The notes under the pieces: generated by a model | The model's database searches: none | Seen by the model: only the letters and a program-made list of their open reading frames with translations | What the model was told of the DNA's origin: nothing | Part shown: piece after piece, positions 26,659 through 40,818 of the stretch | Layout of the letters: every line of letters starts with the position of its first letter | Numbering within the stretch: position 1 is the first letter of the stretch | Position numbers and translations under genes: made by a program | IMG/VR virus record: IMGVR_UViG_3300037882_001635 | Location: 1-40,818 of that record | DNA: 40,818 nucleotides | Direction: 5' to 3' (one strand) | Source of the DNA: a virus

Positions 26659-26973
26659 CTAGACGGTGGCGTACGTATCTAGAGGTAACGTTCTAATCAC
26701 TGTCGGTAGGTACGCATTAATAGCCAAATTAGACCATTTGAATATATACTTGCTGTTTTCGTCAAAGCCCTTACGTGCAAACGTTATGGCGTGCTCGTCT
26801 ATGTTAAGAATGTCATGGTAGTAACTTGCTGTTGTCTTCTTTCCAATTTTAGGATTGTAGGCCTCGTACTCTTGTGTACACTTGCCCAACATGCCCATAA
26901 TTTCGTGGTGGGATAGCCCTAGTAGCTCGTTATGCTGGCAAAGTATGGCGATGTGGTTTTCGTCTAGTCTCAT
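26659..26973 (-). CDS. LGLSxHE-family protein, member A (104 aa)
   Basis: N-terminal ~35 residues carry the family signature: HIAILCQHNELLGLSHHEIM followed by GMLG. The spacing of L-G-L-S-x-x-E and L-G is like a Cro/C1-type helix-turn-helix (scanning helix then recognition helix), though diverged. The rest looks beta-rich (YYHDILNIDEHAITFARKG) with a late W-x-x-L. Four other proteins of this window share the signature (29489, 38909, 39266, 39746). It follows 26980 after 6 nt, in one transcript. Confidence 0.75.
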   Translation of the reverse strand: MRLDENHIAILCQHNELLGLSHHEIMGMLGKCTQEYEAYNPKIGKKTTASYYHDILNIDEHAITFARKGFDENSKYIFKWSNLAINAYLPTVIRTLPLDTYATV

Positions 26974-26979
26974 GGTGGG

Positions 26980-27216
26980 TTAAAAATCTACGGGCGTTGC
27001 AGGTGGTAACTCGATAGGCTTAGGTGGCAAGTACAGATAGCTTAAGTCTTTTGCTGGTTCTGGTTCAGTTGGAATATCCATTCCCCAGGGTATCCTCGTG
27101 TGCCCATCAACCGCTTTTCCAAGCAGAAGGGCTTCTTGCTCTCGGTACCACTTAAGTTCCCTTGCACGTTCAGCAAGTACTTCGCCAAAGCCACTGATTG
27201 ACATTTTCTTCTTCAT
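26980..27216 (-). CDS. Hypothetical protein (78 aa)
   Basis: Starts MKKKMSISGFGEVLAERARE, an amphipathic basic helix to about residue 30, then a Pro-rich tail (LYLPPKPIELPPATPVDF). No domain recognised. Promoter TATAAT 6 nt upstream fixes the start. Co-transcribed with LGLSxHE member A. Confidence 0.7.
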   Translation of the reverse strand: MKKKMSISGFGEVLAERARELKWYREQEALLLGKAVDGHTRIPWGMDIPTEPEPAKDLSYLYLPPKPIELPPATPVDF

Positions 27217-27222
27217 CTACCT

Positions 27223-27228
27223 ATTATA
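27223..27228 (-). promoter_or_regulatory. -10 box of leaderless promoter
   Basis: TATAAT on minus (27228-27223) then AGGTAG and the ATG at 27216. The same TATAATAGGTA-x-ATG layout is found at 21977. Confidence 0.65.
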
Positions 27229-27232
27229 CTAC

Positions 27233-28525
27233 TTACAGTACGTTATCAAATCCCTCCATGGCTGGGTTGCTCAATAAGTGGGCGCAACTAGCGAAAGGTA
27301 CACCTGCCATCCACGCACAAATTACGCATATAAACGCTGCTACGGAGCCTCTGGGGGGCATAGACTTAACTTTGGTACTACCGCCTATAATGCCCTCAAT
27401 TATGCCTAAAACGGGCTTTAAAGCAGGGTCTAATCCTGTGCCAAAGCTACCAAATCGACTACGCTTAAAGATGGCTGTACGCATTTGCCGGCGGAACCCT
27501 TTATCCCATGGCATTACACCATGGATAATGTCGTACGACTGTCTAGGCGTGAGCTTAAACGCTGGTACGTCCTGGTACTGCTCGTACTCCTCAAGTGTCG
27601 CCGTGTTATTCTCACTTGATACTATCTGCTTATCGTAATAGTGCTGACGCTGTAACTCCGTACGCATTTTCAAGGGCATTTCCACTAGCTCCAAATCGTC
27701 ATTAAGTATCGCACCACGATTTTCACGTAGTAAGTAGTTAATTTGGTCTAGGCGTACCCTCCTCCCCTTATACATCCAGCACATCCGCCCGCCCGTTGTA
27801 CGCATACGTTTAGCGAGCTGTAACCGTTCAAGCTCCATAATTTTTTCTTTGGGAGATTGCTTTATGACCTCGTAAAAGTGGTTAAACGCCGTCTTAGCGT
27901 CAGGGCGGCAATCAGGGCGTACTTCGCACTTCTCACGAATATAAAGGGCGGCACCAGGCTGTATCACGCCTTTGTACCAACGTAGGCTATTCATCTCGAT
28001 AACCTTTCCACGTTTCCATGTGTAGTCCAAAAGTCGCTGGTTTTTCTCGTCCCAGTTTGTACCTATGATGTGCATGTGCAGATTGTTCTTGTCGCCATGT
28101 ATCCCCCAGTAAACCGCCGGTGAGTGCTTGTAGTACGCTTCGATGTACTGCATACCTGCATTCTCTAAGTATGGCTGTGCCTTAGCGTACTCGTCAGGGT
28201 CCAAAATATCCCGCATGGACAGTACGGTATGGCGGTGTTTGTAGCTGCTACGCCGACCGCCTTTGTACGCACCGTCAATGATTTTACTGATAAACTTGTG
28301 GTCTAGTAATTCGGCACTAAGCCCCTGGAACGCTGTACCATAAAAGCCACGTTTAAGTACACGGTGGTCCGTATCCAAGAGTTCAGTTTCGACAACCTTG
28401 TTACGTGCCCTGAAACTATCTATGTGTTTAACGATTGCCGCACAGCCCTTTTTATTAAGTTTCGGGAGTATGACGGTTAGAAACCATGCGTACTTAAAGT
28501 TTTCTTGTTCGGTGGTGTAGTTCAT
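27233..28525 (-). CDS. HUH-type relaxase with C-terminal membrane segment
   Basis: 430 residues. The core motif is GIHGDKNNLHMHIIGTNWD: H143, D145, H150 and H152 give the H-x-D-x4-H-x-H signature of mobilisation relaxases (metal-binding motif III). Upstream, KHRHTVLSMRDILDPDEY matches the preceding strand and helix of the family. The catalytic Tyr is not certain; Y3, Y13 and Y62 are candidates. Residues ~230-300 are basic and helical. A hydrophobic helix at about 393-415 (VAAFICVICAWMAGVPFA) would anchor it to the membrane. Third gene of a coupled operon with a DNA-binding-type partner and a small membrane protein, as in plasmid mob loci. An alternative role is nicking for rolling-circle replication. 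Confidence 0.8.
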   Translation of the reverse strand: MNYTTEQENFKYAWFLTVILPKLNKKGCAAIVKHIDSFRARNKVVETELLDTDHRVLKRGFYGTAFQGLSAELLDHKFISKIIDGAYKGGRRSSYKHRHTVLSMRDILDPDEYAKAQPYLENAGMQYIEAYYKHSPAVYWGIHGDKNNLHMHIIGTNWDEKNQRLLDYTWKRGKVIEMNSLRWYKGVIQPGAALYIREKCEVRPDCRPDAKTAFNHFYEVIKQSPKEKIMELERLQLAKRMRTTGGRMCWMYKGRRVRLDQINYLLRENRGAILNDDLELVEMPLKMRTELQRQHYYDKQIVSSENNTATLEEYEQYQDVPAFKLTPRQSYDIIHGVMPWDKGFRRQMRTAIFKRSRFGSFGTGLDPALKPVLGIIEGIIGGSTKVKSMPPRGSVAAFICVICAWMAGVPFASCAHLLSNPAMEGFDNVL

Positions 28526-29115
28526 ACGAAATTGTGTTTGTCTATTTCTTCGATTACGTTGTTAACTTCTGCCCATGCGATGTTGCTGTTTATGTGGGCG
28601 AATACGTTGACTTTTGCGTCTACAATGCGTTTACGTAGTGGTATGCGGTCGGGGCGGGATAAATATAGGTACAGGTCTTGAAACTTAGCATAATCGATTA
28701 CGAGGCGTTCACGTTTCCAAGGGTCAAGCTGTACCATCCAAATGTCATGGCAACGGTGAGGTAGCTGAATATGGATGGGTGTTTGCTTTAGATGGAGTTT
28801 AATAGCTCTTACAACCCGCATGGCAAATTGCTGTACGGGGACGGTTGCATGGGCTGTACCTAATTCCTCAATTCCCGTGCAGAGCTGGTAAAGTGTTTGG
28901 GCGAAGTTTATGTGTTCTAAGGCAAACTCATTCGGGGTTAGGGTGGGGTAGTCTTTTATGCGGTCAACGATGGTAGATATTAGATGGGCTGTACGTTTAT
29001 TGGGACTGTCGGGGTGGTAACCTTTGTCGTACTCTTTTTTCCAGGTGTTGTGTAGTTTCGTGGACACCTGTAGTTCTATCTGGTGGGCTGGTGGGGTAGG
29101 GGTAATGGGGTTCAT
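28522..29115 (-). CDS. Putative relaxase accessory protein (197 aa)
   Basis: Start MNPITPTPPAHQIELQVSTK at 29115 overlaps the stop of the upstream gene; its stop overlaps the relaxase start (both ATGA). Basic and helical, with KLHNTWKKEYDKGYHPD and, near the end, a region with WKRERLVIDYAKFQDLYLYL. No assigned domain. Plasmid relaxases are usually encoded with a MobC/MbeB-like accessory that binds oriT, and coupling suggests that role here. Inference from context. Confidence 0.7.
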   Translation of the reverse strand: MNPITPTPPAHQIELQVSTKLHNTWKKEYDKGYHPDSPNKRTAHLISTIVDRIKDYPTLTPNEFALEHINFAQTLYQLCTGIEELGTAHATVPVQQFAMRVVRAIKLHLKQTPIHIQLPHRCHDIWMVQLDPWKRERLVIDYAKFQDLYLYLSRPDRIPLRKRIVDAKVNVFAHINSNIAWAEVNNVIEEIDKHNFV

Positions 29116-29348
29116 AGAAAGTTGTACTTGAATAGGTAGCCTGCGACTGTACCTAAGAGACAGCCGAAAGAGAAAGCCCTTGCATGTGAAGTGCGTATCC
29201 AGCACCACATAACTATGGCGAACAGTACTGAAGTTTTACCTATGCTGCGGTTGAATATTACGTGAGCGGGTGGTTGCTGTTGTACTATCTCGTTAAGTTT
29301 TTTAGCGTAATTCTCGTTGGCTATGTCCACTGTTTTTGTGAGTTTCAT
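29112..29348 (-). CDS. Small membrane protein of the mob operon (78 aa)
   Basis: MKLTKTVDIANENYAKKLNE, soluble N-terminal ~35 residues, then one or two hydrophobic helices (KTSVLFAIVMWCWI; FSFGCLLGTVAGYLF). Promoter TACAAT 6 nt upstream sets the start at 29348. First gene of the operon with the relaxase. Membrane partners are known in mob systems (for example RSF1010 MobB has a membrane segment). Confidence 0.65.
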   Translation of the reverse strand: MKLTKTVDIANENYAKKLNEIVQQQPPAHVIFNRSIGKTSVLFAIVMWCWIRTSHARAFSFGCLLGTVAGYLFKYNFL

Positions 29349-29354
29349 AAGACT

Positions 29355-29360
29355 ATTGTA
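29355..29360 (-). promoter_or_regulatory. -10 box of leaderless promoter for the mob operon
   Basis: TGTACAAT on minus with TACAAT at 29360-29355, 6 nt before the ATG at 29348. Confidence 0.6.
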
Positions 29361-29405
29361 CAGCATGCAAAGCAGAGTTTCGGAGTAAGCATAATACATG
29401 TGCCA

Positions 29406-29452
29406 GATAGCTATCTCCTCCGAGATAGCGGAAATACGTTTCGCCTACGGCG
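29406..29452. other. Hairpin pair beside the mob operon, oriT candidate
   Basis: GCTATCTC (29410-29417) pairs with GAGATAGC (29422-29429), 4-base loop, and CGCC (29442-29445) with GGCG (29449-29452). They lie in the 129-bp non-coding gap between the mob operon and the 29489 gene. oriT inverted repeats are commonly next to relaxase operons. A terminator is unlikely as no T-tract follows. Confidence 0.4.
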
Positions 29453-29477
29453 ATGATTTTAAGGCATTTCTATGCTG

Positions 29478-29483
29478 TACACT
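29478..29483 (+). promoter_or_regulatory. -10 box, leaderless promoter
   Basis: TGTACACT with TACACT at 29478-29483, only 5 nt before the ATG at 29489, the shortest spacing in the set. Confidence 0.45.
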
Positions 29484-29488
29484 AGCCC

Positions 29489-29914
29489 ATGAATTACAAA
29501 GGCAAAATCACTGAAGACCACATCGAGCTTCTATCCGAAAACAAAGACGGACTGGGCTTATCGTTCCACGAAATTGTACTACTCAAAGACACTCAACCTG
29601 GAGCCGTCAAAATTGAACGCTGGATTAATCGGCTGGACGAGTTTTACAACGTGGCGTGGATTGGTTCAATCAATCCACTAGGCGTAAACTTAGTGTACGA
29701 AATCGAAGAACTAAACGAACGCACAACGTCCTTTTTCACGTGGAAAGAAATATCACTCCAAATGTTCGCAGAAGACTTGAAAGATTTTAAACGCATGCTC
29801 TTTGAGGGTGTCGTACGAGACCAACGGTGCAGCTCTATTGAGTCTTCCCTGGAGCGTCTAAAGGCTCAAAATACATGCGTGCTGGCGTATCGTGTACACT
29901 GTAACTTAACATGA
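29489..29914 (+). CDS. LGLSxHE-family protein, member B (141 aa)
   Basis: Family signature near the start: HIELLSENKDGLGLSFHEIV. The rest includes WIGSINPLGVNLVYEIEEL and a W-K-E-I-S-L helix, a pattern also seen after the signature in the other members. Probable degenerate HTH plus beta-rich domain; function unknown. First gene of a plus-strand pair; stop overlaps the next start (ATGA). Divergent from the mob operon. Confidence 0.75.
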   Translation: MNYKGKITEDHIELLSENKDGLGLSFHEIVLLKDTQPGAVKIERWINRLDEFYNVAWIGSINPLGVNLVYEIEELNERTTSFFTWKEISLQMFAEDLKDFKRMLFEGVVRDQRCSSIESSLERLKAQNTCVLAYRVHCNLT

Positions 29915-30198
29915 CACTGCCGCCCTCCACGCTTAAGTTTGGGGCGTACAAAACCTACACCGTAGCCCGTGCCACCCATTGCCCAATAGGTAGGCTGGAG
30001 GGGCTTACAATCGATTTAGAGGCTGGCAAAACGCCCCCCGCCATCTCCACCCTCCTTGTCGATAATCACGCCCAATTATGGCAAGTAACGGGCTGTACGT
30101 CCACTGGGCGTATCCACCTGCTAGAGTACCGCCCGCCAAAAGTGGTACCTGTAAAATTGGTGAAGTTCGGGCTGGTGGGTAGACTTATAGACATCTAG
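29911..30198 (+). CDS. Hypothetical protein (95 aa)
   Basis: Coupled to 29489 by ATGA. Beta-rich, with LKFGAYKTYTVARATHCP, AQLWQVTGCTSTGRIHLLEY and a basic end VPVKLVKFGLVGRLIDI. It looks like a small SH3-like or OB-like fold, though no family is recognised. Confidence 0.7.
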   Translation: MTLPPSTLKFGAYKTYTVARATHCPIGRLEGLTIDLEAGKTPPAISTLLVDNHAQLWQVTGCTSTGRIHLLEYRPPKVVPVKLVKFGLVGRLIDI

Positions 30199-30203
30199 TG
30201 CTG

Positions 30204-30209
30204 TATAAT
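30204..30209 (+). promoter_or_regulatory. -10 box of leaderless promoter
   Basis: TGTATAAT with TATAAT at 30204-30209, 9 nt before the ATG at 30219. Confidence 0.65.
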
Positions 30210-30218
30210 ATCGGTACT

Positions 30219-30416
30219 ATGGATATTACAGAAATTGACAATGAGTTGGACATATTGGGGTACGCATTAAGCAAGGCGACTGACTGGGACCACAAAGAGG
30301 GACTGCGCGCACGCTGTAACGAACTCTTGGATATGCGTAATCGCCTGACAAAGAAAAAGGTTGCGGTGCGTCCTGCGTCACGTTTATTCCGTGGCCATGC
30401 TTCCCCTCGTACTTGA
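30219..30416 (+). CDS. Small hypothetical protein (65 aa)
   Basis: MDITEIDNELDILGYALSKA then a helix with H-K-E-G-L-R-A-R-C-N-E-L-L-D and a basic tail ending HASPRT. Two helices suggest a coiled hairpin. Start fixed by the -10 box at 30204. Overlaps the next gene by 20 nt. Confidence 0.65.
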   Translation: MDITEIDNELDILGYALSKATDWDHKEGLRARCNELLDMRNRLTKKKVAVRPASRLFRGHASPRT

Positions 30417-30699
30417 ACCCACAGATAAACCCAACTTGTCACAGCTGCGTATCGGTAGCTTGATAGTCTTTTATTCTTACCATGACCCAATAGGGTTTAT
30501 GTCGGCTGGAAAGGTAGTAGTGAGTGAGCCTACTACCAAGACTTCGCTGACATCACGTAGGCACCATAACGCCTTAGAGCCTACGCATAACGCACGTATT
30601 GCACCACAGCTGTTTATGCAGTTACTGGATACGGCTATGCGTACGGCGTGCCGAGAGGTCGCAAAAAATCCCGCACCTTTTCCGGTGCGGGACTTGTGA
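30397..30699 (+). CDS. Hypothetical protein (100 aa)
   Basis: From MLPLVLEPTDKPNLSQLRIG. A strand pair (GSLIVFYSYHDPIGFMSAGKVV) is followed by a basic stretch and helix (APQLFMQLLDTAMRTACREV). Its last codons coincide with a minus-strand terminator hairpin, so the C-terminal sequence is constrained by that. No domain recognised. Confidence 0.6.
   Translation: MLPLVLEPTDKPNLSQLRIGSLIVFYSYHDPIGFMSAGKVVVSEPTTKTSLTSRRHHNALEPTHNARIAPQLFMQLLDTAMRTACREVAKNPAPFPVRDL
30663..30692 (-). terminator. Intrinsic terminator embedded in the 3' end of a plus-strand gene
   Basis: TCCCGCACC (30669-30677) pairs with GGTGCGGGA (30684-30692), 6-base loop. Six T follow on minus (30668-30663). It ends the HTH gene at 30714. 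Confidence 0.85.
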
Positions 30700-30713
30700 T
30701 AGGCTGACTAAGC

Positions 30714-31073
30714 TTACTTAGCGTCAGGCTTCTTGTTGGGCTTAACCAGACCTAACGCCTTTTTGTCGCTGTTAATCGTACCCACCACTACACCGCAATA
30801 ATCGGCTGTAGCTTTAATCGTCTTTTTCTCCGCCAGTGCCTGTTTCACGTACTCCCTGCGTTTGGTGATATCGTCAAATCGTGGTACCAGTTTAGGCTTG
30901 CTGGGTTTAGGTACCGTGACGAAAGCTGCGTTCAGCTTAGCGTCAAAGTCTTCCAGTCCCTCGTACCCGTGTTTTTTTACCAGTTCATCCACCGCCCGTT
31001 TCGTATCAATAAGCTTCTTTTTTGCAGCCAAAGCAGCTTGTTCTTGTGCAAATAATTCTTCAATGTTTGTCAT
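30714..31073 (-). CDS. HTH-type regulator candidate (119 aa)
   Basis: From MTNIEELFAQEQAALAAKKK: an N-terminal coiled helix of ~40 residues, a Pro/Lys linker (TVPKPSKPKLVPRF), then a basic C-terminal helix-turn-helix (KKTIKATADYCGVVVGTINS followed by DKKALGL). The coil-linker-DNA-binding plan is like small oligomeric regulators, including H-NS-like proteins, without their specific motif. A TGTACATC sequence 10 nt upstream of this ATG is a possible weak -10; an ATG ten codons earlier (31103) is less likely. Faces the plus-strand genes and has its own terminator. Confidence 0.7.
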   Translation of the reverse strand: MTNIEELFAQEQAALAAKKKLIDTKRAVDELVKKHGYEGLEDFDAKLNAAFVTVPKPSKPKLVPRFDDITKRREYVKQALAEKKTIKATADYCGVVVGTINSDKKALGLVKPNKKPDAK

Positions 31074-31115
31074 GCGAAGTAGGGATGTACAATCGTTGTG
31101 CATGTGTCAAGCAAC

Positions 31116-31146
31116 AAAAAACCCAAGGTAATCTGGTTACCCTGGG
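31116..31146 (-). terminator. Intrinsic terminator after the replication gene
   Basis: Ten-bp stem with one G-U (31122-31131 with 31137-31146), 5-base loop, six T on minus (31121-31116). It separates the helicase gene from the HTH gene. Confidence 0.85.
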
Positions 31147-31186
31147 CGTTTCGTTTACTGCTGGCGGGTACGACACCGCTGCGAAA

Positions 31187-32908
31187 TTAGATACGTGTAA
31201 TCTTGTACACCCGTCCGTCACGTGTTTTTGTTTCCTGCACCATTGCAGGCTGGGCTTCTGCTAGCTTACGTAAGCCTTTACCAAGTTTCTCGTGGGACAA
31301 ATCTTTCAAGAGTGCTTTCATTTTATCAAGACTGGACATTTCCGTAAGCAAATCCGAGGGGCGGTATATTTGGCTGTCACCTACCACCCATCCCAAGCAA
31401 TCCATGTAGTAATTAAGCAAGTCCTCGATAGTGGCATTACTTGCGTCCATGCGTCCATCGATAATAAGCGATTCGTGGGCATAAGGTGCCACTCCGAAGC
31501 GATAGGTACCCTCGGTATGCTTTGGGGGTGTCCAGTTCATTAACCACTGTAGGAATGCAGGTAGCTGCGTGATTAGGCGTTCGCTCATGCCTTCCGTGAC
31601 GTTAAACGGGGTTACCTTAAAAAGTAACATCTTACCCGCCATGTCCTCGTCATATTTAGGGATAACCGATAATCCACGTTCTGTCATGTTGCAAAAAATA
31701 ACAATGGGTGTGCAGTTGTAAGCTTTGGTTTTATCGGCACCCTTGCCCTCTACAACCTTTGCAGGCTCGCAAATAAGGTTATTGATAACGCTGGTATGCT
31801 CCTCACGCTTGTCGTACTCTACGTACAAGTCATCACAAAACCAAATGGGGGCGCACATTTCGGTACTATTAAAGTTGTCGCCTGCCAACATTTGCTTAAT
31901 GCTGAAACTATCACCACTTAAAATGGTGTCGAAAAAATGTTCGCCTAGAAAAGACTTACCAGAGTTAGGCGGACCTGCAACTACCAAGAGTTGGCAGGGT
32001 CGGGGCTTTAGGTTGTAGCGGTCCATGTACATACGTTTAACCCACGCCAAGAAGTAGTCTAGCTGCTTGTCGCCAAATAGCCCTTCTAGTAAATCCTGTA
32101 CGTCCTTGAAGTCGCCTGGAGCTGCCGAAGGCTGCATAACACGCTTGTTCGCCATGTTAAATATAACCTTGTTTACATCCTTAACACGGCTGAACGGCTG
32201 TTTGCCATCGGGACGGAAAAGCTCGTAACGTATGCTATCCACTCGATTGTAGGCGTTAATGTGACCTACAACCTCGTTACGTGTTGGGTACTCAATCTCC
32301 TCCATGGGTTCGCCGTCCTCGTTCTTTGGATTGTCCCAAGGGATACCCATTTGTGTTTCCATAAAAAGCATAAGCTGCCTGTCCGTCTCACTGACGAAGC
32401 AACCCTTGTGGTCCCGCCTCCAGTATTTCTTCCCATCGAACACAGTAGCGTCACGAAACGCAATAATCTTAGCCAGGTGTTTCATCCGCTCCTCGTTACG
32501 GGCTGCACTTGCTTCCAAGTCCGCCGTAGTTGCAAAAGGTACTGCACCCTTGTCAAGTATGGCAACAATGAGCGTGCTGGATGTAGTGTGCATACGTTTC
32601 GTCCACCGTACGTAGTGTAGCCACGCACCATAATCGATTACGTTTTTAGTCTCGATAAGCTTATTAGCCCACCACACTGCGTCACACTTAATGTGGTAGA
32701 CCATCTCCGCATAGGCTGCGGGGTTAGTAGTCTTAAGCAAAGCGAAAGCCGCCTCGCCAACTTTAGTGGAGATAGCTTCTGCTTCCTCGAAGCTAACCTC
32801 CTTAATCTTCTTTTCGACCTTTGCAGGTTTGGTTGGAGTGGTGGTTGCCGATGTTGGGACATCCACGTTCATCATATAGTCTTCTGGTTCTAGTAATTTG
32901 TCGTACAT
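31187..32908 (-). CDS. Replication protein with SF3 (D5-like) helicase domain
   Basis: 573 residues. SF3 ATPase: Walker A GPPNSGKS at 312-319, Walker B PIWFCDDLY with D359-D360, then motif C in TPIVIFCNMTE (conserved Asn), and an arginine-finger region about 430. The 150-250 part resembles the D5 N-terminal helical region seen in phage primase-helicases, but no primase catalytic motif is evident. It should unwind the adjacent iteron origin. Start at 32908 because TATAGT lies 9 nt upstream; the upstream in-frame ATG at 32947 lies before that promoter. Confidence 0.88.
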   Translation of the reverse strand: MYDKLLEPEDYMMNVDVPTSATTTPTKPAKVEKKIKEVSFEEAEAISTKVGEAAFALLKTTNPAAYAEMVYHIKCDAVWWANKLIETKNVIDYGAWLHYVRWTKRMHTTSSTLIVAILDKGAVPFATTADLEASAARNEERMKHLAKIIAFRDATVFDGKKYWRRDHKGCFVSETDRQLMLFMETQMGIPWDNPKNEDGEPMEEIEYPTRNEVVGHINAYNRVDSIRYELFRPDGKQPFSRVKDVNKVIFNMANKRVMQPSAAPGDFKDVQDLLEGLFGDKQLDYFLAWVKRMYMDRYNLKPRPCQLLVVAGPPNSGKSFLGEHFFDTILSGDSFSIKQMLAGDNFNSTEMCAPIWFCDDLYVEYDKREEHTSVINNLICEPAKVVEGKGADKTKAYNCTPIVIFCNMTERGLSVIPKYDEDMAGKMLLFKVTPFNVTEGMSERLITQLPAFLQWLMNWTPPKHTEGTYRFGVAPYAHESLIIDGRMDASNATIEDLLNYYMDCLGWVVGDSQIYRPSDLLTEMSSLDKMKALLKDLSHEKLGKGLRKLAEAQPAMVQETKTRDGRVYKITRI

Positions 32909-32917
32909 AACAATACT

Positions 32918-32923
32918 ACTATA
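32918..32923 (-). promoter_or_regulatory. -10 box of leaderless promoter for the helicase gene
   Basis: TGTATAGT on minus (TATAGT 32923-32918), 9 nt before the ATG at 32908. Confidence 0.65.
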
Positions 32924-32975
32924 CATCTTAAAATCTAAAAAGGGCATTTTATTTACAAAAATCGTACTTATACGT

Positions 32976-33345
32976 ACTTCCGCACCTTAAGTGTATATAA
33001 ATCATGTAACTTATGGCAACGTGCGGAAGTGCGGAAGGTGCCACTTTTGGAGCTTCCGCATTTTTAGGTACATATAAGTAACTATCTTTACTAGTACTTA
33101 TGACATCGTGCGGAAGTGCGGAAGGTTCTCTTATCTCAATATATAAATAAATAAATAATATATATATATAGGGAGGGGTATAGCCACGTGATGGGACGTG
33201 TGCGTATAATGGTTGGAATAAAAACACGTTTTTACTTCCGCACTTCCGCACTTTTCCACAAATATCTACTATTACAGTACTTAAACGTATGGTATTTTGC
33301 GGAGGTAGTAAATAACCACTTCCGCAAGCTTCCGCACTTCCGCAA
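32976..33345. other. Origin of replication with CTTCCGCA iterons
   Basis: No gene in 32909-33390. Eleven exact copies of CTTCCGCA occur: forward at 32977, 33053, 33235, 33243, 33319, 33329 and 33337; reverse ending at 33029, 33037, 33116 and 33124. Most are in tandem with an 8-bp period (CTTCCGCACTTCCGCAC and its complement). Reverse pairs lie left and forward pairs right of an AT-rich core at about 33125-33175 (a run of AAATAAATAAATAATATATA type), which would be the unwinding element. Next to the SF3 helicase gene this is a typical iteron origin. Confidence 0.85.
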
Positions 33346-33347
33346 AT

Positions 33348-33381: not shown

Positions 33382-33390
33382 TAAGGAGTT

Positions 33391-33951
33391 ATGCCCTCAA
33401 AATTCCTCGTTAACCTAACTGTAGCCCAAAAACAGCTACTTACATCCCTTTCCCTTTGCAACGGCTTAGAGTTCTCCGCCTTTGACGTTAGCCAAGAAGC
33501 AGCCGTGCGTATCGTATGTAAGCAAAGTATCCACCTTCTAGCTAACTATAAGCACGAACAGTTTGATAAGCCCACAAACCACCAGTCTCACGAACTCGCT
33601 AGGAAAATACGTGTTGTAGCCCAGATGACAGCGAAATATCAAAAATGGAGCGATAACGGTGTTATGGGCAAGAAGCTATTTTACATTACAGAGCCTAACC
33701 TTCGACCACCAGTAGCGTTTGACGGCATGTGTAGAACTACCAAGGCAATGACAATGCACACCCTACTAGAGCTGACAAAGTGCGTATGTTGGTCGCATAA
33801 AGATAATCAGGAGATACGGCAACAGTTTAACAATCACCTTATGCGTTTGTTAATTGAAGAATTACCACTAGATAAGGCTATGGAGCTTAACGGTACGTAC
33901 GAGGTTATGAGCCTACACGAAGTACTAGCACTAAAAAAATGTATAAAATAG
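33391..33951 (+). CDS. Hypothetical AGTACTGGAC-regulon protein (186 aa)
   Basis: Soluble, basic and helical, beginning MPSKFLVNLTVAQKQLLTSL. Cys at several places (CNG, VCK, MCR, KCVCW, KKC) could bind metal but no clear zinc finger is formed. No domain recognised. First gene right of the origin, from promoter P3, so probably early. The stop codon TAG is the start of the next AGTACTGGAC element (P2). Confidence 0.78.
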   Translation: MPSKFLVNLTVAQKQLLTSLSLCNGLEFSAFDVSQEAAVRIVCKQSIHLLANYKHEQFDKPTNHQSHELARKIRVVAQMTAKYQKWSDNGVMGKKLFYITEPNLRPPVAFDGMCRTTKAMTMHTLLELTKCVCWSHKDNQEIRQQFNNHLMRLLIEELPLDKAMELNGTYEVMSLHEVLALKKCIK

Positions 33952-33983: not shown

Positions 33984-34020
33984 ATGTATATGCACAGGTA
34001 GTGCATAAAACCAAAAAACC

Positions 34021-34506
34021 ATGAATACCAAGACCCTCACCCCCACCACTCAGACATACGATTTTAGCCACCAAGTGGAAAATCACCCTGCAAAGTACGA
34101 TGGTACCGAGTTTGGACCCTTTACAGTACAAAACCAAGCAATTAGACTAGCCAAGTTTTACGTGCCTAACCAAGAACTTAGCCAGGAAGAGACAACCCAG
34201 GCGATATGGGATTTAGCACTAGAGCAGCTAGCACCTGTCCGCCAAGCTATCGATGACGAACGTGAGGGTATGTACGTAGAATTCATTGCAGAGTCATTAC
34301 GTCAATCACTCGATGAGGTCATTAAAGAAGCTCACGTAGACCGTATTTGTGATTTAGAGATGGCAAAAGTTCCCAGCACACTTGATGGATACACTTTCTG
34401 GAACTCACAAGAACAAAACTGGGGAAAAGTCTACCCATACTTTGACGACAAGTTAGAACGTCTAGTAAGCGAAATATGCAGCAAGTATGACGCACTAGTA
34501 AAGTAA
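34021..34506 (+). CDS. Hypothetical AGTACTGGAC-regulon protein (161 aa)
   Basis: MNTKTLTPTTQTYDFSHQVE, then acidic helices (LSQEETTQAIWDLALEQLAP; MYVEFIAESLRQSLDEVIKE). No domain recognised. Read from P2 and closed by a terminator at 34532, so it is a single-gene transcript. No Shine-Dalgarno. Confidence 0.78.
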   Translation: MNTKTLTPTTQTYDFSHQVENHPAKYDGTEFGPFTVQNQAIRLAKFYVPNQELSQEETTQAIWDLALEQLAPVRQAIDDEREGMYVEFIAESLRQSLDEVIKEAHVDRICDLEMAKVPSTLDGYTFWNSQEQNWGKVYPYFDDKLERLVSEICSKYDALVK

Positions 34507-34531
34507 GTCACCTCACAGCACACCCCCAAAG

Positions 34532-34557
34532 ACCGCCCGCACACGGCGGTTTTTTTG
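34532..34557 (+). terminator. Intrinsic terminator
   Basis: ACCGCC/GGCGGT stem (34532-34537 with 34545-34550), 7-base loop, then eight T. Confidence 0.85.
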
Positions 34558-34561
34558 CGTG

Positions 34562-34567
34562 TACAAT
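34562..34567 (+). promoter_or_regulatory. -10 box of leaderless promoter
   Basis: TGTACAAT with TACAAT at 34562-34567, 6 nt before the ATG at 34574. It starts 4 bp after the preceding terminator T-run. Confidence 0.6.
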
Positions 34568-34573
34568 ACCCCC

Positions 34574-35212
34574 ATGGACTTACCCGCACAAGACGCAGCT
34601 TACAAGGAGCTTGCATGTGCGATAATCATCTCCACCGTGGATGAGCTTACAGCCTGCATTGCACGTGGACAGTACGAGGAGCCAGAGGACTACGAAATGT
34701 ACGCTAGCTTTGTGTCTACGGGATTGCCTCACCTGGTAGCCAGTATGCAGTTAGACTTTAGTACTGCGCAAGTCCATGCTGTACAATATAAATTACAAGC
34801 ACTTATGGCACAGTTACCTAAGCCGCTTGCCAGCCAAAAAATTACCATGAATACTACCACTACAGAGACCACAGCCCCTATAACCAAGCGTACCCACGCT
34901 TCTAAAGAAACACTCGCAAAGATACACCAACACATGCGTAACGCACTAGAAACGGGTACAAAACCTGACTTGCCTAGTCTATGCACAGCTTACGACATGA
35001 AGCCTGCTACCGTCTACGCCCACTGGATGAAAATTAAGAAGGAGGCTAAAGCAGTCAAAGCACCAACGCAAGCTGTATACAAGCGACGTGGACGCCCTGC
35101 TAAAGGGAATATTGTTACTAACGTCGAACTTAGGCTACCTGTAGAACGTAAGGAAACCCTTTGGCAGCGTTTTAAGCGCGGTGTGCGTGTTATACTAGGT
35201 TATGATTGCTAA
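34574..35212 (+). CDS. DNA-binding protein with HTH and AT-hook-like motif (212 aa)
   Basis: From MDLPAQDAAYKELACAIIIS. Residues ~118-155 form a helix-turn-helix (DLPSLCTAYDMKPATVYAHW). Then a basic tail with YKRRGRPAKG, the R-G-R-P core of an AT-hook, and another basic helix near the end (LWQRFKRGVRVILG). A Thr-rich linker (TTTTETTAP) separates an acidic N-terminal domain. A transcription factor or nucleoid-associated early protein is likely. Start fixed by the -10 box. Overlaps the next gene by 11 nt. Confidence 0.72.
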   Translation: MDLPAQDAAYKELACAIIISTVDELTACIARGQYEEPEDYEMYASFVSTGLPHLVASMQLDFSTAQVHAVQYKLQALMAQLPKPLASQKITMNTTTTETTAPITKRTHASKETLAKIHQHMRNALETGTKPDLPSLCTAYDMKPATVYAHWMKIKKEAKAVKAPTQAVYKRRGRPAKGNIVTNVELRLPVERKETLWQRFKRGVRVILGYDC

Positions 35213-35714
35213 ATATACAGCCGAAGAGTTGCGCCAGTACCGACAAACCTTTATGGTAATGATGGAGCTGTACCCAGCAATCAAACATTGTGGGTTTTAC
35301 TACTGGTTCCGCAAAAACGGCATGCCACTGGATAACCTTGAAGACGCCAAAGAGTGGTACGAACAGCGGGTAGCCCTGGAAGCCGAAGAAGACCAATTAC
35401 AGGCAGAACTTGAGGTAATGGACGTAGAGTACCGTACAGCGGTTAAAGAAGCGTGGAATGAGCATGTAACCGCATGCACAGACAAAGAAGAAGCCCCGTT
35501 AACGTTTAATCAGTTTGCGATGAAATTATTTGGGCTGATTATGTCCACTCCTGAATGCAAGGCAGCTAGAGGTTCACGTGAAATGCTAGCCGATGAAATG
35601 GGGGCGTTTGCATGTTGCACACGTCAAAACATAGATATTGCCGTACGTGAGGCAGTTAAGAAAGTACAGCGTAAAATACCACGTACGTACCGTGGCGAGC
35701 TTGACAAGGTGTAA
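35202..35714 (+). CDS. Protein with Nu1-like winged-helix motif (170 aa)
   Basis: Residues ~25-52 (HCGFYYWFRKNGMPLDNLED then A-K-E-W-Y) follow the same GMP-x5-8-A-x-E-W-Y pattern as the small terminase of this genome. A long coiled charged helix follows (QRVALEAEEDQLQAELEVMD). The C-terminal part has another possible HTH (ADEMGAFACCTRQNIDIAVR). It is probably DNA-binding, maybe a second site-specific factor; exact role unknown. Confidence 0.7.
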   Translation: MIAKYTAEELRQYRQTFMVMMELYPAIKHCGFYYWFRKNGMPLDNLEDAKEWYEQRVALEAEEDQLQAELEVMDVEYRTAVKEAWNEHVTACTDKEEAPLTFNQFAMKLFGLIMSTPECKAARGSREMLADEMGAFACCTRQNIDIAVREAVKKVQRKIPRTYRGELDKV

Positions 35715-35735
35715 AGTATGGTGTAGGTGTCAGCC

Positions 35736-35864
35736 ATGCTACGACTACTTGGCTTTGCCCTATTCCACGTTTTTACGGGTACTTATAAAGTACTGCACTT
35801 TGTCGCACTTGCGATATTTGTGTGCATAATCGAGACTATCAACCAGCTAGACCCTAAGGATTAG
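35736..35864 (+). CDS. Small membrane peptide (42 aa)
   Basis: MLRLLGFALFHVFTGTYKVL followed by HFVALAIFVCIIETINQLDP: one or two hydrophobic segments with a short polar end. It overlaps the 3' end of the convergent gene at 35854 by 11 nt, an arrangement like the peptide at 21275. No start signal is decisive, so it is tentative. Confidence 0.45.
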   Translation: MLRLLGFALFHVFTGTYKVLHFVALAIFVCIIETINQLDPKD

Positions 35865-36243
35865 TAAGCTTCAAAGCTTCGTCCCTGTACTTTTTACGGA
35901 GTGCAGGGTTCTCCATTTGCTCCGTGTGGCAGCGGCGTAGTAACTCCATGGTACGCTCTAAGTCGCAATCGTTATCCTTTGCCCAGTCCGCAAGCTTGTA
36001 GTACAGCTGGTGGTACTCAAAGGCTACTTTTTTAACAGGTACTTCAAGGATTACAGCTATGTCCTCGTCATGCGTTTTATCGTCCACGGTAATGGACTGG
36101 ATGACGCCCAGCAGTTGCTTTGCACGACGTAACTTCGCACGCTTTGCGTAAATCTGTTCAGCCTTTGCACCCGCCGCAGGGTCCCACTTTGGAGCAGGGG
36201 TTGCAAGTATGGCGTTAAAGTCGGTATCAAATAGTGTATTCAT
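35854..36243 (-). CDS. Hypothetical protein (129 aa)
   Basis: From MNTLFDTDFNAILATPAPKW. Basic helix KAEQIYAKRAKLRRAKQLLG, an HTH-like middle (DEDIAVILEVPVKKVAFEYH) and a charged C-terminal helix. A DNA-binding role is possible. Single gene against the direction of its neighbours, with TACGCT 10 nt upstream as a likely -10; the start at 36270 would precede that promoter. Confidence 0.7.
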   Translation of the reverse strand: MNTLFDTDFNAILATPAPKWDPAAGAKAEQIYAKRAKLRRAKQLLGVIQSITVDDKTHDEDIAVILEVPVKKVAFEYHQLYYKLADWAKDNDCDLERTMELLRRCHTEQMENPALRKKYRDEALKLTNP

Positions 36244-36253
36244 AGATACATAC

Positions 36254-36259
36254 AGCGTA
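36254..36259 (-). promoter_or_regulatory. Putative -10 box for the 129-aa gene
   Basis: TGTACGCT on minus with TACGCT at 36259-36254, 10 nt before the ATG at 36243. Weaker than the others. Confidence 0.4.
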
Positions 36260-36317
36260 CACCGAAGCAACGAGCGTGTCCATAGCTAATTGCAAAATAA
36301 ATGCAAATAACGTATGG

Positions 36318-36323
36318 TATACT
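36318..36323 (+). promoter_or_regulatory. -10 box of leaderless promoter
   Basis: TATACT, 9 nt before the ATG at 36333. It begins a long run of overlapping plus-strand genes. Confidence 0.65.
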
Positions 36324-36332
36324 TTAGGTACT

Positions 36333-36959
36333 ATGGAAAAATCACCTATTGAGCATATCGCACAAGCCAGCGTATCGCACTCCGCTATTGCATTACAAAT
36401 TCAGGAAATAACGGAACTCCACGCAGCTTTTAACGCAACCTTTCACACGGCAATGTTTGACCTAGCCGACCGCGCAGTAGTACTAGGCAAAAAGCTTATC
36501 GCACTCCGCCAAGTGGTAGACCAGGACGAGTCCCGCCAATGGGTGGCATGGGTAGAAGCCAGCTTACCTATTACAATCCGCCAAGTGCAGAAGTATATCA
36601 AGATTGCCGAGCACGAGTACGAGTTGCCAGCCATTAAAGCAAGCTACAAAGGGCTACTTACCGTAAACGTGTTAGCCAAGCTTGTAGGGGTTAAGGCGGA
36701 CGATGAAACAGCCTCCGCACCCGTTGAGAAGATTGACCCTTTCACACCCGAAAACGTAGGACGTACGTTTAAGGACTTAGATATTTTACGCCTAAAACGC
36801 AAGTACGACACCCTTGTACTTGCCGCTAATTCGTCCGCCCAACAACTGAAAACACGTGCCAGCGTGCTACGAGACGTAGCCATAGACATCGTGCAGGGTA
36901 ACCCCGTAGATGACGAGGATTACAATCAGGCGTTAGAAATTATCAATGCAACCCTATAA
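36333..36959 (+). CDS. DUF3102-like protein (208 aa)
   Basis: MEKSPIEHIAQASVSHSAIA; then LADRAVVLGKKLIALRQVVD followed by RQWVAWVEASLPITIRQVQKYIKIAE, the pattern of DUF3102 (a helix with L-x-x-x-K, then W-V-x-W-V/W-x-x-x-L-x-x-S-x-R-x-x-Q-x-Y-x-x-I-A). Such proteins are found in phages and plasmids and may bind DNA; their role is not known. Start set by the -10 box 9 nt upstream. Overlaps the next gene by 14 nt. Confidence 0.75.
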   Translation: MEKSPIEHIAQASVSHSAIALQIQEITELHAAFNATFHTAMFDLADRAVVLGKKLIALRQVVDQDESRQWVAWVEASLPITIRQVQKYIKIAEHEYELPAIKASYKGLLTVNVLAKLVGVKADDETASAPVEKIDPFTPENVGRTFKDLDILRLKRKYDTLVLAANSSAQQLKTRASVLRDVAIDIVQGNPVDDEDYNQALEIINATL

Positions 36960-37785
36960 CCCCGACTCCATACGCCCCGACCAGCAAGCTAAGCATAACG
37001 CAAACCCCCACGAAATAGGGAGCGACACAGACGAGTTCGACCCTATTGAGGGGCTTACCTATGACGACATTAACCAGCAAGGGTTAGTCGAACCTAGGTA
37101 CATTGCACTGGTAAACTTTGTGGCACAACTTGCCCAGGTTAACGAGTCACGCCCTGGATTAGGCAACGCCGCAGCGTATCGGCTCATTGACCTAGTTAAG
37201 GAGCTACCCGACCAAGTGACCCAGCTTATCGGCATACTAGAAAGCCTAAAGGAGCTACACGAAGAAGAGTGCTTACCCGTGGCAATTAAGACCCTAGACC
37301 TACTAACCACGACTAAGACCCATTATGCGTACAAAACCCTTGTAGCAGCTATTACAGGCATGTCCGCACCCTCACCGCAGGGAGAAGCCCAGTTGCGTAA
37401 GTGCAGTAGGCAAAACATATGGGGAGATATTGCCGAGGGAGTGGCAAACATCCCCGCAGAGTTTCAGCCTATTGTACAAGCGTATCGTAAAGCTTTCACC
37501 GACAAAACGCAGACAGGCAAGAAACAGCAAAAGGCACGGGTTATACGGGCAAAGAAAGCTAAGTACGTAGCCCAAATATGGACAATGGGCAAGAAAGGGG
37601 CGTCCGTTAATTCCAGCCATTACATTGTTAAATGGCGGATAGATGACGGCGAGTACATAGTTTTTAAGGACATTGAGACTAACATTATTAAGCGGTTAAA
37701 GCAAACCAGCGTACGCATTATTGAGCTAGGTACGAATATCGAAGTATTTGGGCCAAATGCGAGTGCAAACAATGTAGTACAATAA
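36946..37785 (+). CDS. Hypothetical protein (279 aa)
   Basis: Acidic N-terminal ~45 residues, a helical middle (LVNFVAQLAQVNESRPGLGN; LIGILESLKELHEEECLPVA), a basic stretch (KKQQKARVIRAKKAKYVAQI) and a beta-rich C-terminus (YIVKWRIDDGEYIVFKDIET). The last part could be a small OB- or SH3-like fold. No family recognised. Part of the 36333-38912 operon, probably replication-associated. Confidence 0.75.
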   Translation: MQPYNPDSIRPDQQAKHNANPHEIGSDTDEFDPIEGLTYDDINQQGLVEPRYIALVNFVAQLAQVNESRPGLGNAAAYRLIDLVKELPDQVTQLIGILESLKELHEEECLPVAIKTLDLLTTTKTHYAYKTLVAAITGMSAPSPQGEAQLRKCSRQNIWGDIAEGVANIPAEFQPIVQAYRKAFTDKTQTGKKQQKARVIRAKKAKYVAQIWTMGKKGASVNSSHYIVKWRIDDGEYIVFKDIETNIIKRLKQTSVRIIELGTNIEVFGPNASANNVVQ

Positions 37786-37793
37786 CAGCAGTT

Positions 37794-38195
37794 ATGAAAT
37801 CACCTACCAAAAAGAAAATTAACAAGAAGAAGCCGATACGTACCGCCAAGGGTCCAAGTATTAAGTTCAGCGAGACTATTTGGCTTATGGTATGCGGTAC
37901 CAAGTCCACGGGATACGGTGTAACCATCTCACCGCACCACGACCCGAAGCAATGCGTACCTTTCCAGCGGGTATTCGCCAAGTACCTGGAGAAGCAAGGT
38001 ATACCCGTAGATGACCCCGTAGAGGCACCGTTATTCGTATGCTTTCGTACTGCACCAGCCTACATGCCCTTTGTCGAGTCACCAAATAGTACTTTTACAT
38101 TCCTTAATGACCTGATGAGTGCAGCTATTGAGGATTACAAAAAGACCGTAGACGCAATGCCAAAGGATGATACGAGCAGTAACCCAACACAATGA
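37794..38195 (+). CDS. Hypothetical protein (133 aa)
   Basis: Very basic N-terminus (MKSPTKKKINKKKPIRTAKG), then a conserved-looking alpha/beta body (IWLMVCGTKSTGYGVTISPH; PLFVCFRTAPAYMPF) and an acidic helix near the end. The stop overlaps the next start. No domain recognised. A DNA- or RNA-binding early protein is plausible from the basic tail. Confidence 0.72.
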   Translation: MKSPTKKKINKKKPIRTAKGPSIKFSETIWLMVCGTKSTGYGVTISPHHDPKQCVPFQRVFAKYLEKQGIPVDDPVEAPLFVCFRTAPAYMPFVESPNSTFTFLNDLMSAAIEDYKKTVDAMPKDDTSSNPTQ

Positions 38196-38377
38196 GCCGT
38201 ACACGTGAACAAATCGAAGCGTACATAAAGATGTCGCACGAAATACTAAAGGAGCTTAACGAAGTAGATAGAGCCATTGCCGTAGCGTCACTTAGTACCG
38301 ACACTAACGCTACAGCCGTGTTACAAGCACTGCTAGCCCATCGCAAAGACCTATTAAGCCAAGAACTACCCTTTTAA
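38192..38377 (+). CDS. Small helical protein (61 aa)
   Basis: MSRTREQIEAYIKMSHEILK followed by ELNEVDRAIAVASLSTDTNA and a helix with L-L-A-H-R-K-D-L-L-S-Q-E-L. All helical with a short break, like a coiled-coil hairpin. Coupled upstream by ATGA; next gene begins 2 nt after its stop. Confidence 0.65.
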   Translation: MSRTREQIEAYIKMSHEILKELNEVDRAIAVASLSTDTNATAVLQALLAHRKDLLSQELPF

Positions 38378-38379
38378 CC

Positions 38380-38550
38380 ATGACTAAGAAAACCAAAACC
38401 ATAGAAAGTGGAGTAATCCCCACAGAGATACACACCAGCAATAAAGAGTTTAACGAGGAGTACGCCGCCGCCGTTAAACGTCCAAAAGACCCAACTAAAG
38501 GCAGTACAGGTCATTATCTAAGTGCATCCGAGTTGGCTAAGCTAAAATGA
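38380..38550 (+). CDS. Small hypothetical protein (56 aa)
   Basis: MTKKTKTIESGVIPTEIHTS, a helix around KEFNEEYAAAVKRPKD and a C-terminal SASELAKLK. Charged and soluble. The stop overlaps the start of the RusA-like gene (ATGA), which supports it as a real member of the operon although it is short. Confidence 0.6.
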   Translation: MTKKTKTIESGVIPTEIHTSNKEFNEEYAAAVKRPKDPTKGSTGHYLSASELAKLK

Positions 38551-38912
38551 GCCGTGGAAGACGCCTTACCACAGCCGAGTTTGCCGCCCTTTCTACCCAA
38601 TGGAGCGTATCCCGTAAAGTTGGTAGTACTATGCAAGTGCCCAAGCTGGAACGAGCTAAACAGAAAAGGGCGGTGGGGGCGTCACTCATTAAAAGAGGCT
38701 ATGAGGTCCGCCGCTTTCACATCCATTACACAGTCTATAACAGCCGACTCATGGACCAAGAGAATATCTGCACTAAGTACCTCACAGACGCCCTCATTGA
38801 CGGAGGAGTCATTGACGCAGACGAATGGGGATACCTCACAGTCAGCATTGACCAAATCAAGTGCAAAAAAGCGGAAGAACGCATAGAAGCACTAATTACA
38901 CTTAAACCATGA
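38547..38912 (+). CDS. RusA-like Holliday-junction resolvase, apparently split across two frames
   Basis: The coupled frame (121 aa) carries the RusA C-terminal half: RRFHIHYTVYNSRLMDQENI then KYLTDALIDGGVIDADEW. D-x-E-N and D-A-D-E correspond to the D70/D72 and D91 positions of E. coli RusA, with the second Asp replaced by Glu. The expected N-terminal half, with a strand and P-S-W-N-E-L-N-R, is found in the +1 frame (open 38554-38886): PVKLVVLCKCPSWNELNRKG followed by RWGRHSLKEAMRSA. A full protein would need a +1 shift near 38590-38610 and a -1 shift near 38690-38720. Two compensating indels, recoding or a sequencing fault are all possible. Confidence 0.6.
   Translation: MSRGRRLTTAEFAALSTQWSVSRKVGSTMQVPKLERAKQKRAVGASLIKRGYEVRRFHIHYTVYNSRLMDQENICTKYLTDALIDGGVIDADEWGYLTVSIDQIKCKKAEERIEALITLKP
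38884..38908 (+). repeat. 25-bp direct repeat, copy 1
   Basis: TAGAAGCACTAATTACACTT followed by AAACC; 24 of 25 bases match 39222-39246. Both copies encode the same C-terminal EALITL-x-P of successive genes. The 38909 gene is thus bounded by direct repeats. Confidence 0.85.
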
Positions 38913-39250
38913 AAATAACACAAGAAGCAATAAGCATATTTGGTATCCATGCAGATAACTTAGGGCTAAGCCTGGAAGAGTTAGCTGCCCTGCATAACAA
39001 TTTAGGTAAAAGTACAAGGCCTGTAACGTCAGCACGCAACAACATGGGCTTTGAGCTTATGTCAGTGACACCTACGCATATCACACTCAGCGTTACAAGG
39101 CGTACATATGGTTCACAGCAGATTAAGCACGTGGAAACGTGGCAAGTGCCGTTTAACACGCTTTGTTACATGTACGAACCAGACAATTACTGCCAAGTAG
39201 CTAGGTATATTAAACAAGCACTAGAAGCACTAATTACACTTGAACCGTAA
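38909..39250 (+). CDS. LGLSxHE-family protein, member C (113 aa)
   Basis: Signature AISIFGIHADNLGLSLEELA near the N-terminus (here L-E-E instead of x-H-E). Then a beta-rich stretch (NNMGFELMSVTPTHITLSVT) and W-Q-V-P-F, and a C-terminal helix ending ALEALITLEP, the same as the end of the RusA-like gene. Coupled to that gene by ATGA. Flanked by 25-bp direct repeats, so the gene may have been inserted or duplicated as a cassette. Confidence 0.75.
   Translation: MKITQEAISIFGIHADNLGLSLEELAALHNNLGKSTRPVTSARNNMGFELMSVTPTHITLSVTRRTYGSQQIKHVETWQVPFNTLCYMYEPDNYCQVARYIKQALEALITLEP
39222..39246 (+). repeat. 25-bp direct repeat, copy 2
   Basis: Second copy of the repeat at 38884-38908, with G for A at one position. 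The two are 338 bp apart, the length of one gene. Confidence 0.85.
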
Positions 39251-39252
39251 TG

Positions 39253-39258
39253 TATACT
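39253..39258 (+). promoter_or_regulatory. -10 box of leaderless promoter
   Basis: TGTATACT (TATACT 39253-39258), 7 nt before the ATG at 39266. The 27 bases from 39249 to 39275 recur nearly unchanged at 39729-39755. Confidence 0.65.
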
Positions 39259-39265
39259 AGTAGAC

Positions 39266-39730
39266 ATGATACTTACAAAAAGAGAAGTTAATATACTGAA
39301 GCGTGTTAGAGAAAAGTACAACATACAATGTGAGGGGAAGCTTAAGGAGGGCCAGCTAGTTCAAGCATTACTAGGACTAAATGACGATTACGCATATATG
39401 GCTAATCGTTCGCGCATTCTATATGATAAAAAGCCTAGAGAAAAGATGGTTTGCGTTGTCTATCCAACGGAAGAAGTGGTGCAGGCTGTCTATCTAGACG
39501 CAATAACTGACTACTTCACGTTAAACCTAAACTGGATGCCGCTACTCATACGTTACGCAGATTTTAAGGGACTGTCATATCATGAAGTCATGCAGCTTGT
39601 TGGGCTTGGACTTAAGGTACCTGCAAGTATTAAGAAGGCCACAGACGAGTATGAAATGACCAATGTGATGCACTTTATACATAGTGCCAAGCTCTACAGG
39701 GACGCACAGATAGCGTTTGACACGGCATAA
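39266..39730 (+). CDS. LGLSxHE-family protein, member D (154 aa)
   Basis: Two-part protein. First half: MILTKREVNILKRVREKYNI, then DYAYMANRSRILYDKKPREK and MVCVVYPTEEVVQAVYLDAI. Second half: LNWMPLLIRYADFKGLSYHEVMQLVGLG, the family signature, and a short helix. It is a clear paralogue of the following gene, with matching order of parts (Y-A-Y, YP-x-x-E-V, L-x-L-x-W-x-P-L/V-L). Signature placed near the C-terminal side, unlike members A-C. Own leaderless promoter. Confidence 0.78.
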   Translation: MILTKREVNILKRVREKYNIQCEGKLKEGQLVQALLGLNDDYAYMANRSRILYDKKPREKMVCVVYPTEEVVQAVYLDAITDYFTLNLNWMPLLIRYADFKGLSYHEVMQLVGLGLKVPASIKKATDEYEMTNVMHFIHSAKLYRDAQIAFDTA

Positions 39731-39732
39731 TG

Positions 39733-39738
39733 TATACT
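39733..39738 (+). promoter_or_regulatory. -10 box of leaderless promoter
   Basis: TGTATACT (TATACT 39733-39738), 7 nt before the ATG at 39746; a duplicate of the promoter at 39253. Confidence 0.65.
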
Positions 39739-39745
39739 AGTACAC

Positions 39746-40333
39746 ATGATACTTAAACAACGTCACGTGCGCATAATCCATATGCACGCACCCGTTCACG
39801 GCAAGGACAGCTACTACTATAAGGAGAACCAAGCGAACCTAGCTAAGCTTAAGGTAGGTGCAGTGGTGCCGTGGCTAATGAACATAACGCCTGCATATGC
39901 GTACCTAGCTAGAGATACGGCAGGTGACTACTATGTAAGGTACCCAGCTAACGAAGTAGCAAGCTTAATCGTAGGTAGGGTAGGGGACACCGACTACATA
40001 GAGCTAACGTTAGAGTGGTTGCCTGTACTCATGCACTATGGGGCAACACACGGGCTATCGTATCACGAGACAACCAGCTTACTAGGTCTATTCGTACCGG
40101 CAGAGACTCACAATATACGAGGGCATACGAGGAACGCACAGTACGTAATTACTGCTATAGGAAGTAATGGCATGGTTAAAGTCGAGCACACGATCCACGG
40201 AGGCAGCTTCGAGGAGGAACACCCAGCGGATGAGATGATAGGACTAATGGACCAAATAGCGGGGGCTATCAAGTTTCGTAAGCTACAAGAACAATACGAT
40301 AGCAAGTACGCACGTAACACACCACAGCAATAG
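39746..40333 (+). CDS. LGLSxHE-family protein, member E (195 aa)
   Basis: Starts MILKQRHVRIIHMHAPVHGK. N-terminal beta-type part (ITPAYAYLARDTAGDYYVRY followed by PANEVASLIVG), then LEWLPVLMHYGATHGLSYHE and TTSLLGLF, the family signature, and a second beta-type part (YVITAIGSNGMVKVEHTIHG) with P-A-D-E-M that repeats the P-A-N-E-V pattern of the first. So it looks like beta unit, HTH-like unit, beta unit. Paralogue of 39266. Last gene before the right end. Confidence 0.78.
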   Translation: MILKQRHVRIIHMHAPVHGKDSYYYKENQANLAKLKVGAVVPWLMNITPAYAYLARDTAGDYYVRYPANEVASLIVGRVGDTDYIELTLEWLPVLMHYGATHGLSYHETTSLLGLFVPAETHNIRGHTRNAQYVITAIGSNGMVKVEHTIHGGSFEEEHPADEMIGLMDQIAGAIKFRKLQEQYDSKYARNTPQQ

Positions 40334-40806: not shown

Positions 40807-40818
40807 TGACGCAAGGCA
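40807..40818. repeat. Right copy of 12-bp terminal direct repeat (candidate cos overhang)
   Basis: TGACGCAAGGCA, identical to bases 1-12. See the left copy for interpretation. Confidence 0.55.

Follow-up and report, generated by a model that had tools for sequence, protein, structure and literature searches.

Why would a phage genome of modest size carry five small proteins with the same short Gly-Leu-Ser motif, scattered over both strands, and are these proteins a family of regulators? We addressed this in a window of 40,818 nt, the whole stretch of DNA that was analysed, whose carrier we take to be a temperate tailed phage with no close known relatives. All five open reading frames that the original prediction had placed in this window are present, and they lie in its non-structural half:

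26659-26973, minus strand: P1 (P0001), 104 residues, with the shared unit N-terminal and its own coding frame scoring best
29489-29914, plus strand: P2 (P0002), 141 residues, a family member
38909-39250, plus strand: P3 (P0003), 113 residues, the weakest member
39266-39730, plus strand: P4 (P0004), 154 residues, with the unit internal; tandem paralog of P5
39746-40333, plus strand: P5 (P0005), 195 residues, closing the rightward gene run

Their neighbours include a RusA-like gene, which precedes P3, and the genes of a relaxase-like protein and a DUF5906 helicase:

38547-38912, plus strand: RusA-like Holliday-junction resolvase (phrog_1682, E 1.5e-7), directly upstream of the P3-P4-P5 array
27233-28525, minus strand: HUH relaxase-like protein, matched below cut-off by Pfam Relaxase (E 1.6e-4)
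31187-32947, minus strand: DUF5906 helicase, which looks SF3-like

The P3 start codon and the RusA-like stop codon overlap, and P1 sits 6 nt after a 78-residue ORF (26980-27216), downstream of the relaxase-like gene. When codon usage was scored with a model trained on structural genes, the annotated frame was the best for each of P1-P5; P2, P3 and P4 are among the lower-scoring genes, and so are the RusA-like gene and ORF 29911-30198.

The five proteins had been predicted to have a sequence unit in common, and leave-one-out profiles and motif counts bear this out for about 30 residues, located as follows (E values are those of the held-out member):

26881-26970, minus strand: unit in P1, residues 2-31, RLDENHIAILCQHNELLGLSHHEIMGMLGK; E 4.6e-10
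29504-29584, plus strand: unit in P2, residues 6-32, KITEDHIELLSENKDGLGLSFHEIVLL; E 1.7e-5
38912-38992, plus strand: unit in P3, residues 2-28, KITQEAISIFGIHADNLGLSLEELAAL; E 0.018
39521-39610, plus strand: unit in P4, residues 86-115, LNLNWMPLLIRYADFKGLSYHEVMQLVGLG region; E 5.2e-10
40004-40087, plus strand: unit in P5, residues 87-114, LTLEWLPVLMHYGATHGLSYHETTSLLG; E 3.1e-7

Within-window searches were made against the 414 stop-to-stop ORFs of the window. Among the non-training ORFs of this set every held-out member ranked first, with the next-best ORFs at E values of at least 0.37, and a profile made from P1-P3 only recovered P4 (E 0.0024, rank 1) and P5 (E 0.091, rank 2) ahead of the next ORF (0.21). 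By blastp against the same ORFs, P1, P2 and P3 each match other members first after themselves, and P4 matches P5 with an E value of 3e-13. Pairwise local scores of P1-P2 and P1-P4 exceeded all of 2000 shuffles; those of P3-P4 and P3-P5 were ordinary by this measure. The pattern GLS.[HE]E, a motif picked post hoc, occurs five times in 35,613 window residues versus three times in 1,384,092 residues of comparison ORFs (from some 85 loci, mostly TerL-related and nearly all from distantly related phages), and GLS.HE occurs four times versus none in the same sets.

G-L-S-x-x-E is a classical helix N-cap, and it is also present in the TatD DNases and sigma factors matched in a search with the unit profile. 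With G, L, S and E masked, P1 was still recovered (E 3e-5) and P2 ranked first but at an E value of 1.4, while the signals of P3, P4 and P5 were lost, P4 and P5 not having been trained on each other. Because masking leaves only P1 significant, much of the unit signal is the GLSxxE helix-capping box; as far as the sequences can be read, similarity beyond the cap is limited, and P3 appears to be the weak link, its membership deriving mostly from this box. One could thus envision that only P4 and P5 are paralogs, with P1-P2 and P1-P4 possibly homologous, and that P3 and part of the rest share the turn by chance, as the masking result, the unrelated remainders of the proteins (see below) and the ordinary scores of P3-P4 and P3-P5 would suggest. 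We consider such convergence unlikely because the GLSx[HE]E pattern is about 60-fold commoner here than in the ORFs of related-phage loci, because the leave-one-out ranks are all 1 (1 and 2 with P4 and P5 both left out), and because P1 is significant even when masked (3e-5). The mutual similarity thus appears to be above chance, for which the case is good for P1, P2, P4 and P5 and marginal for P3. A possible sixth member (33391-33951) gave only an HMM echo (E 0.38-3.7) with no support from shuffles, and an HExxH metalloprotease built on the HE of GLSxHE was rejected since the second H is missing in all five proteins.

The remainder of the proteins is another matter. A common beta-rich partner region had been proposed, yet the tails are no closer to one another than shuffles (joint p 0.69), and the pairwise shuffle tests fail too, with the exception of P4/P5. 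These two are full-length tandem paralogs with 39% identity, sharing an N-terminal extension that P1-P3 do not have. Whole-protein similarity, on comparison of the sequences, is confined to this pair, and common descent over the whole protein is unproven for the others. An internal repeat in P4/P5, in which the N-terminal half would be a further unit, was too weak to claim (hhalign E 0.07).

The unit had been likened to a worn helix-turn-helix (HTH) of the Cro/C1 type, a reading that our searches do not establish. No Pfam HTH family was matched at E≤10 by any of P1-P5, and the echoes obtained otherwise were all sub-threshold: P4 aligned by tblastn across phages with the N-terminal HTH_3 region of a Mu-B-like protein at an E value of 0.5; the five-unit profile scored the MuB-like protein at 0.0039 in a local set already holding that tblastn match; P4 scored 0.014, far below the curated cut-off, against the SigM sigma-factor model in the NCBIfam search; and the unit profile scored 0.63 against sigma-E region 4 (2h27). 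The AF2 model of P5 is unusable (pLDDT 42). That of P1, from an alignment of three rows (P1, P2 and P3), is of moderate confidence (pLDDT 65) and has helices at residues 5-13, 15-18, 22-27, 82-87 and 89-95 and strands at 34-40, 45-58, 62-68 and 75-79, in the order alpha-alpha-beta4-alpha; helices thus flank the GLS and strands follow where a recognition helix would be, an arrangement unlike a Cro-type HTH, although with three aligned rows and this pLDDT the model counts as weak evidence. Fold searches with the P1 model (Foldseek and VIA, against the PDB and viral folds) gave no match above noise.

Nevertheless, one could regard the unit as helices 1 and 2 of an HTH like that of sigma region 4 or Cro/C1, with a diverged recognition helix, in which case the five proteins would be DNA-binding transcription factors. 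The alignments of P4 with the MuB-like HTH_3 region and the SigM model and of the unit profile with sigma-E region 4 lean in this direction, as does the continuation of P2 with TQPGAVKIERWINRLDEF, which by eye resembles a third helix; moreover, the searches made did not identify a CI/Cro repressor gene in the window. However, a third helix is not conserved across P1-P5, no member matches a Pfam HTH family at E≤10, the P1 model (at its moderate confidence) puts strands after the GLS helix, and GLSxxE is a generic helix N-cap that is found in unrelated proteins such as the TatD DNases. We therefore find it possible, but doubtful, that these are degenerate HTH regulators. The five genes form a real but modest lineage-specific family, for which a role as DNA-binding regulators is not demonstrated.

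The proposal that the family is an expanded one without a known description agrees with what we found: five members, with no family match in Pfam, PHROGs, PADLOC or NCBIfam. A sequence search of the PDB gave no significant relative of the family, tblastn of all five proteins against INPHARED gave no relative, and a plasmid tblastn with P4 gave no match. As to other phages, in which the original prediction proposed looking for the family, none was found to carry it; scans of IMG/VR and GTDB contigs, which reach mainly close relatives, gave no relative. The same holds for the phage itself, in that capsid, helicase and single-terminase queries against the contig scans yielded no kin, a terminase alignment retrieved distant kin only (about 22-33% identity), and a terminase alignment had no relative among genome contigs. 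The 34-37 records of these TerL-based kin that were searched contain no family member, while the family alignment used for that search recovers each of P1-P5 from the window, having been built from those five. The DUF5906 helicase had no tblastn match in INPHARED, nor did the relaxase-like protein have one among PLSDB plasmids. A match to Paradiddles gp112 falls on a DUF3307 protein and was judged to be chance.

How the copies may have accumulated is suggested by the DNA around P3, P4 and P5, where two pairs of direct repeats are found:

38884-38908, plus strand: the 25-nt direct repeat that brackets P3, left copy, at the 3' end of the RusA-like ORF (EALITLKP)
39222-39246, plus strand: right copy of the 25-nt repeat (96%), at the 3' end of P3 (EALITLEP)
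39248-39280, plus strand: the 33-nt direct repeat, left copy, where P4 starts
39728-39760, plus strand: the 33-nt direct repeat, right copy (91%), where P5 starts

Direct repeats of this quality (at least 23/25 identity, copies within 700 nt) number only five in the 40.8 kb of the window; two of the five bracket P3 and P4, and their copies fall exactly on gene boundaries. A -10-like box, TAYACT, stands before four of the five genes, in three cases inside these repeats:

29478-29483, plus strand: TACACT box of P2, 5 nt before the ATG
38897-38902, plus strand: TACACT box of P3, 6 nt before the ATG, inside the left 25-nt repeat
39253-39258, plus strand: TATACT box of P4, 7 nt before the ATG, inside the left 33-nt repeat
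39733-39738, plus strand: TATACT box of P5, 7 nt before the ATG, inside the right 33-nt repeat

Of 46 starts, 9 (344, 1058, 10111, 29489, 29911, 35202, 38909, 39266 and 39746) have TAYACT in the 25 nt before them, versus 0.57 expected. The starts were collected by hand from ORF lists, and two were shifted to internal ATGs (6099 and 10111); because the shift at 10111 was prompted by the box seen there, the count is slightly favourable. The presence of the box in four of the five family genes (P2-P5) has a hypergeometric p of about 0.0035, worked by hand and post hoc. Shine-Dalgarno-like tetramers are not enriched (upstream of 6 of the 46 starts versus 10 expected), and no clear -35 box was seen by eye. 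Boxes that abut the starts, together with few Shine-Dalgarno sequences, suggest leaderless transcripts; that the boxes act as promoters is our guess from their position and sequence. With the start signal inside the repeats, recombination could plausibly have added or removed single genes precisely, though this is unobserved.

Several other features of the window were recorded. A 12-bp direct terminal overlap, TGACGCAAGGCA (positions 1-12 and 40807-40818), makes a closed circle the probable form of the record. At 33009-33264, just upstream of the DUF5906 helicase gene, iteron-like GTGCGGAAGTGCGGAAG repeats in direct and inverted orientation form a candidate replication origin. There is a perfect 31-bp tandem duplication at 9716-9777, just downstream of the gene at 8697-9710 (probable major capsid), and a radical-SAM-like protein (1058-2218; Pfam E 5.5e-6, just below cut-off) is encoded between a ParB-like ORF and terminase genes. 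Over the whole window GATC is strongly avoided (4 versus 74 expected from trinucleotides), as are GGCC (11 versus 129) and CGCG, CCGG and GCGC, while GTAC is frequent (490 versus 371 expected); the avoided palindromes suggest a restriction-avoidance signature.

Such restriction pressure would also fit a different account, in which the five are anti-defence or host-takeover morons, that is, small orphan effectors that came in one at a time, each under a promoter of its own. Start-proximal boxes of their own, the bracketing repeats and the atypical codon usage of P2-P4 speak for this account; however, none matches PHROGs or a named anti-defence protein (PADLOC, a defence library, says little here), and we judge this account improbable.

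We favour, with a probability of roughly 0.5, the reading that P1-P5 are lineage-specific paralogous small accessory proteins, with one shared two-helix module and a diverged remainder, that serve as early modulators. The module would consist of a helix, a Gly-Leu-Ser turn capping the next helix, and then that helix with the pattern xHExhxxL(L)G, the remainder after it having presumably diverged beyond recognition. Copies were gained by tandem duplication, as for P4/P5, and others probably came from insertion or recombination where genes meet, P3 and P4 being bracketed by direct repeats. Given the TAYACT box 5-7 nt before their ATG, P2-P5 probably also yield leaderless transcripts of their own. 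What the sequences themselves show is the common core, the P4/P5 duplication, the repeats and the boxes before the starts. Most likely, the two-helix head would serve all five as a binding surface, whether for DNA or for a host or phage molecule that they have in common, and the differing bodies would set the task of each protein, the family then comprising small modulators that act early on host or phage processes; a regulatory or host-interaction function is our inference. A stronger version, in which the family is a modular kit of one docking head with interchangeable bodies, traded as single-gene cassettes through boundary repeats that carry leaderless promoters, strikes us as quite unlikely. 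If real as read, the locus illustrates in compact form how accessory proteins of phages multiply, with a small shared head, fast-diverging bodies and gene-sized cassettes whose border repeats double as start-proximal promoters; at present the case consists of a single orphan family in a single orphan phage.

Comparable arrangements are known. Cluster K mycobacteriophages carry Start-Associated Sequences, a 13-bp AGGAG-containing element in 11-19 copies, for which a role in translation initiation has been proposed and whose extended inverted repeats are likely bound by DNA-binding proteins (PMC3203893). Like these, the boxes described here are short repeated DNA elements directly upstream of the starts of a subset of non-structural genes; unlike them, the element here is TAYACT, -10-like and without the Shine-Dalgarno AGGAG core, and it occurs in nine genes, some on the structural side and four in this protein family. 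In leaderless bacterial genes, TANNNT signals lie about 12 bp ahead of the start (PMC3160421). The window resembles that pattern in having a TA-like box at a comparable distance from the ATG and no enrichment for Shine-Dalgarno-like tetramers, whereas here the box is confined to a subset of genes and is read from the sequence. At the protein level, the succession helix, GLSY, helix over 30-50 residues recalls the MuB-like N-terminal HTH and sigma-70 region 4, from which the present unit differs in that the similarity is sub-threshold, the third helix is not conserved, and neither an ATPase nor a sigma-factor context accompanies it here.
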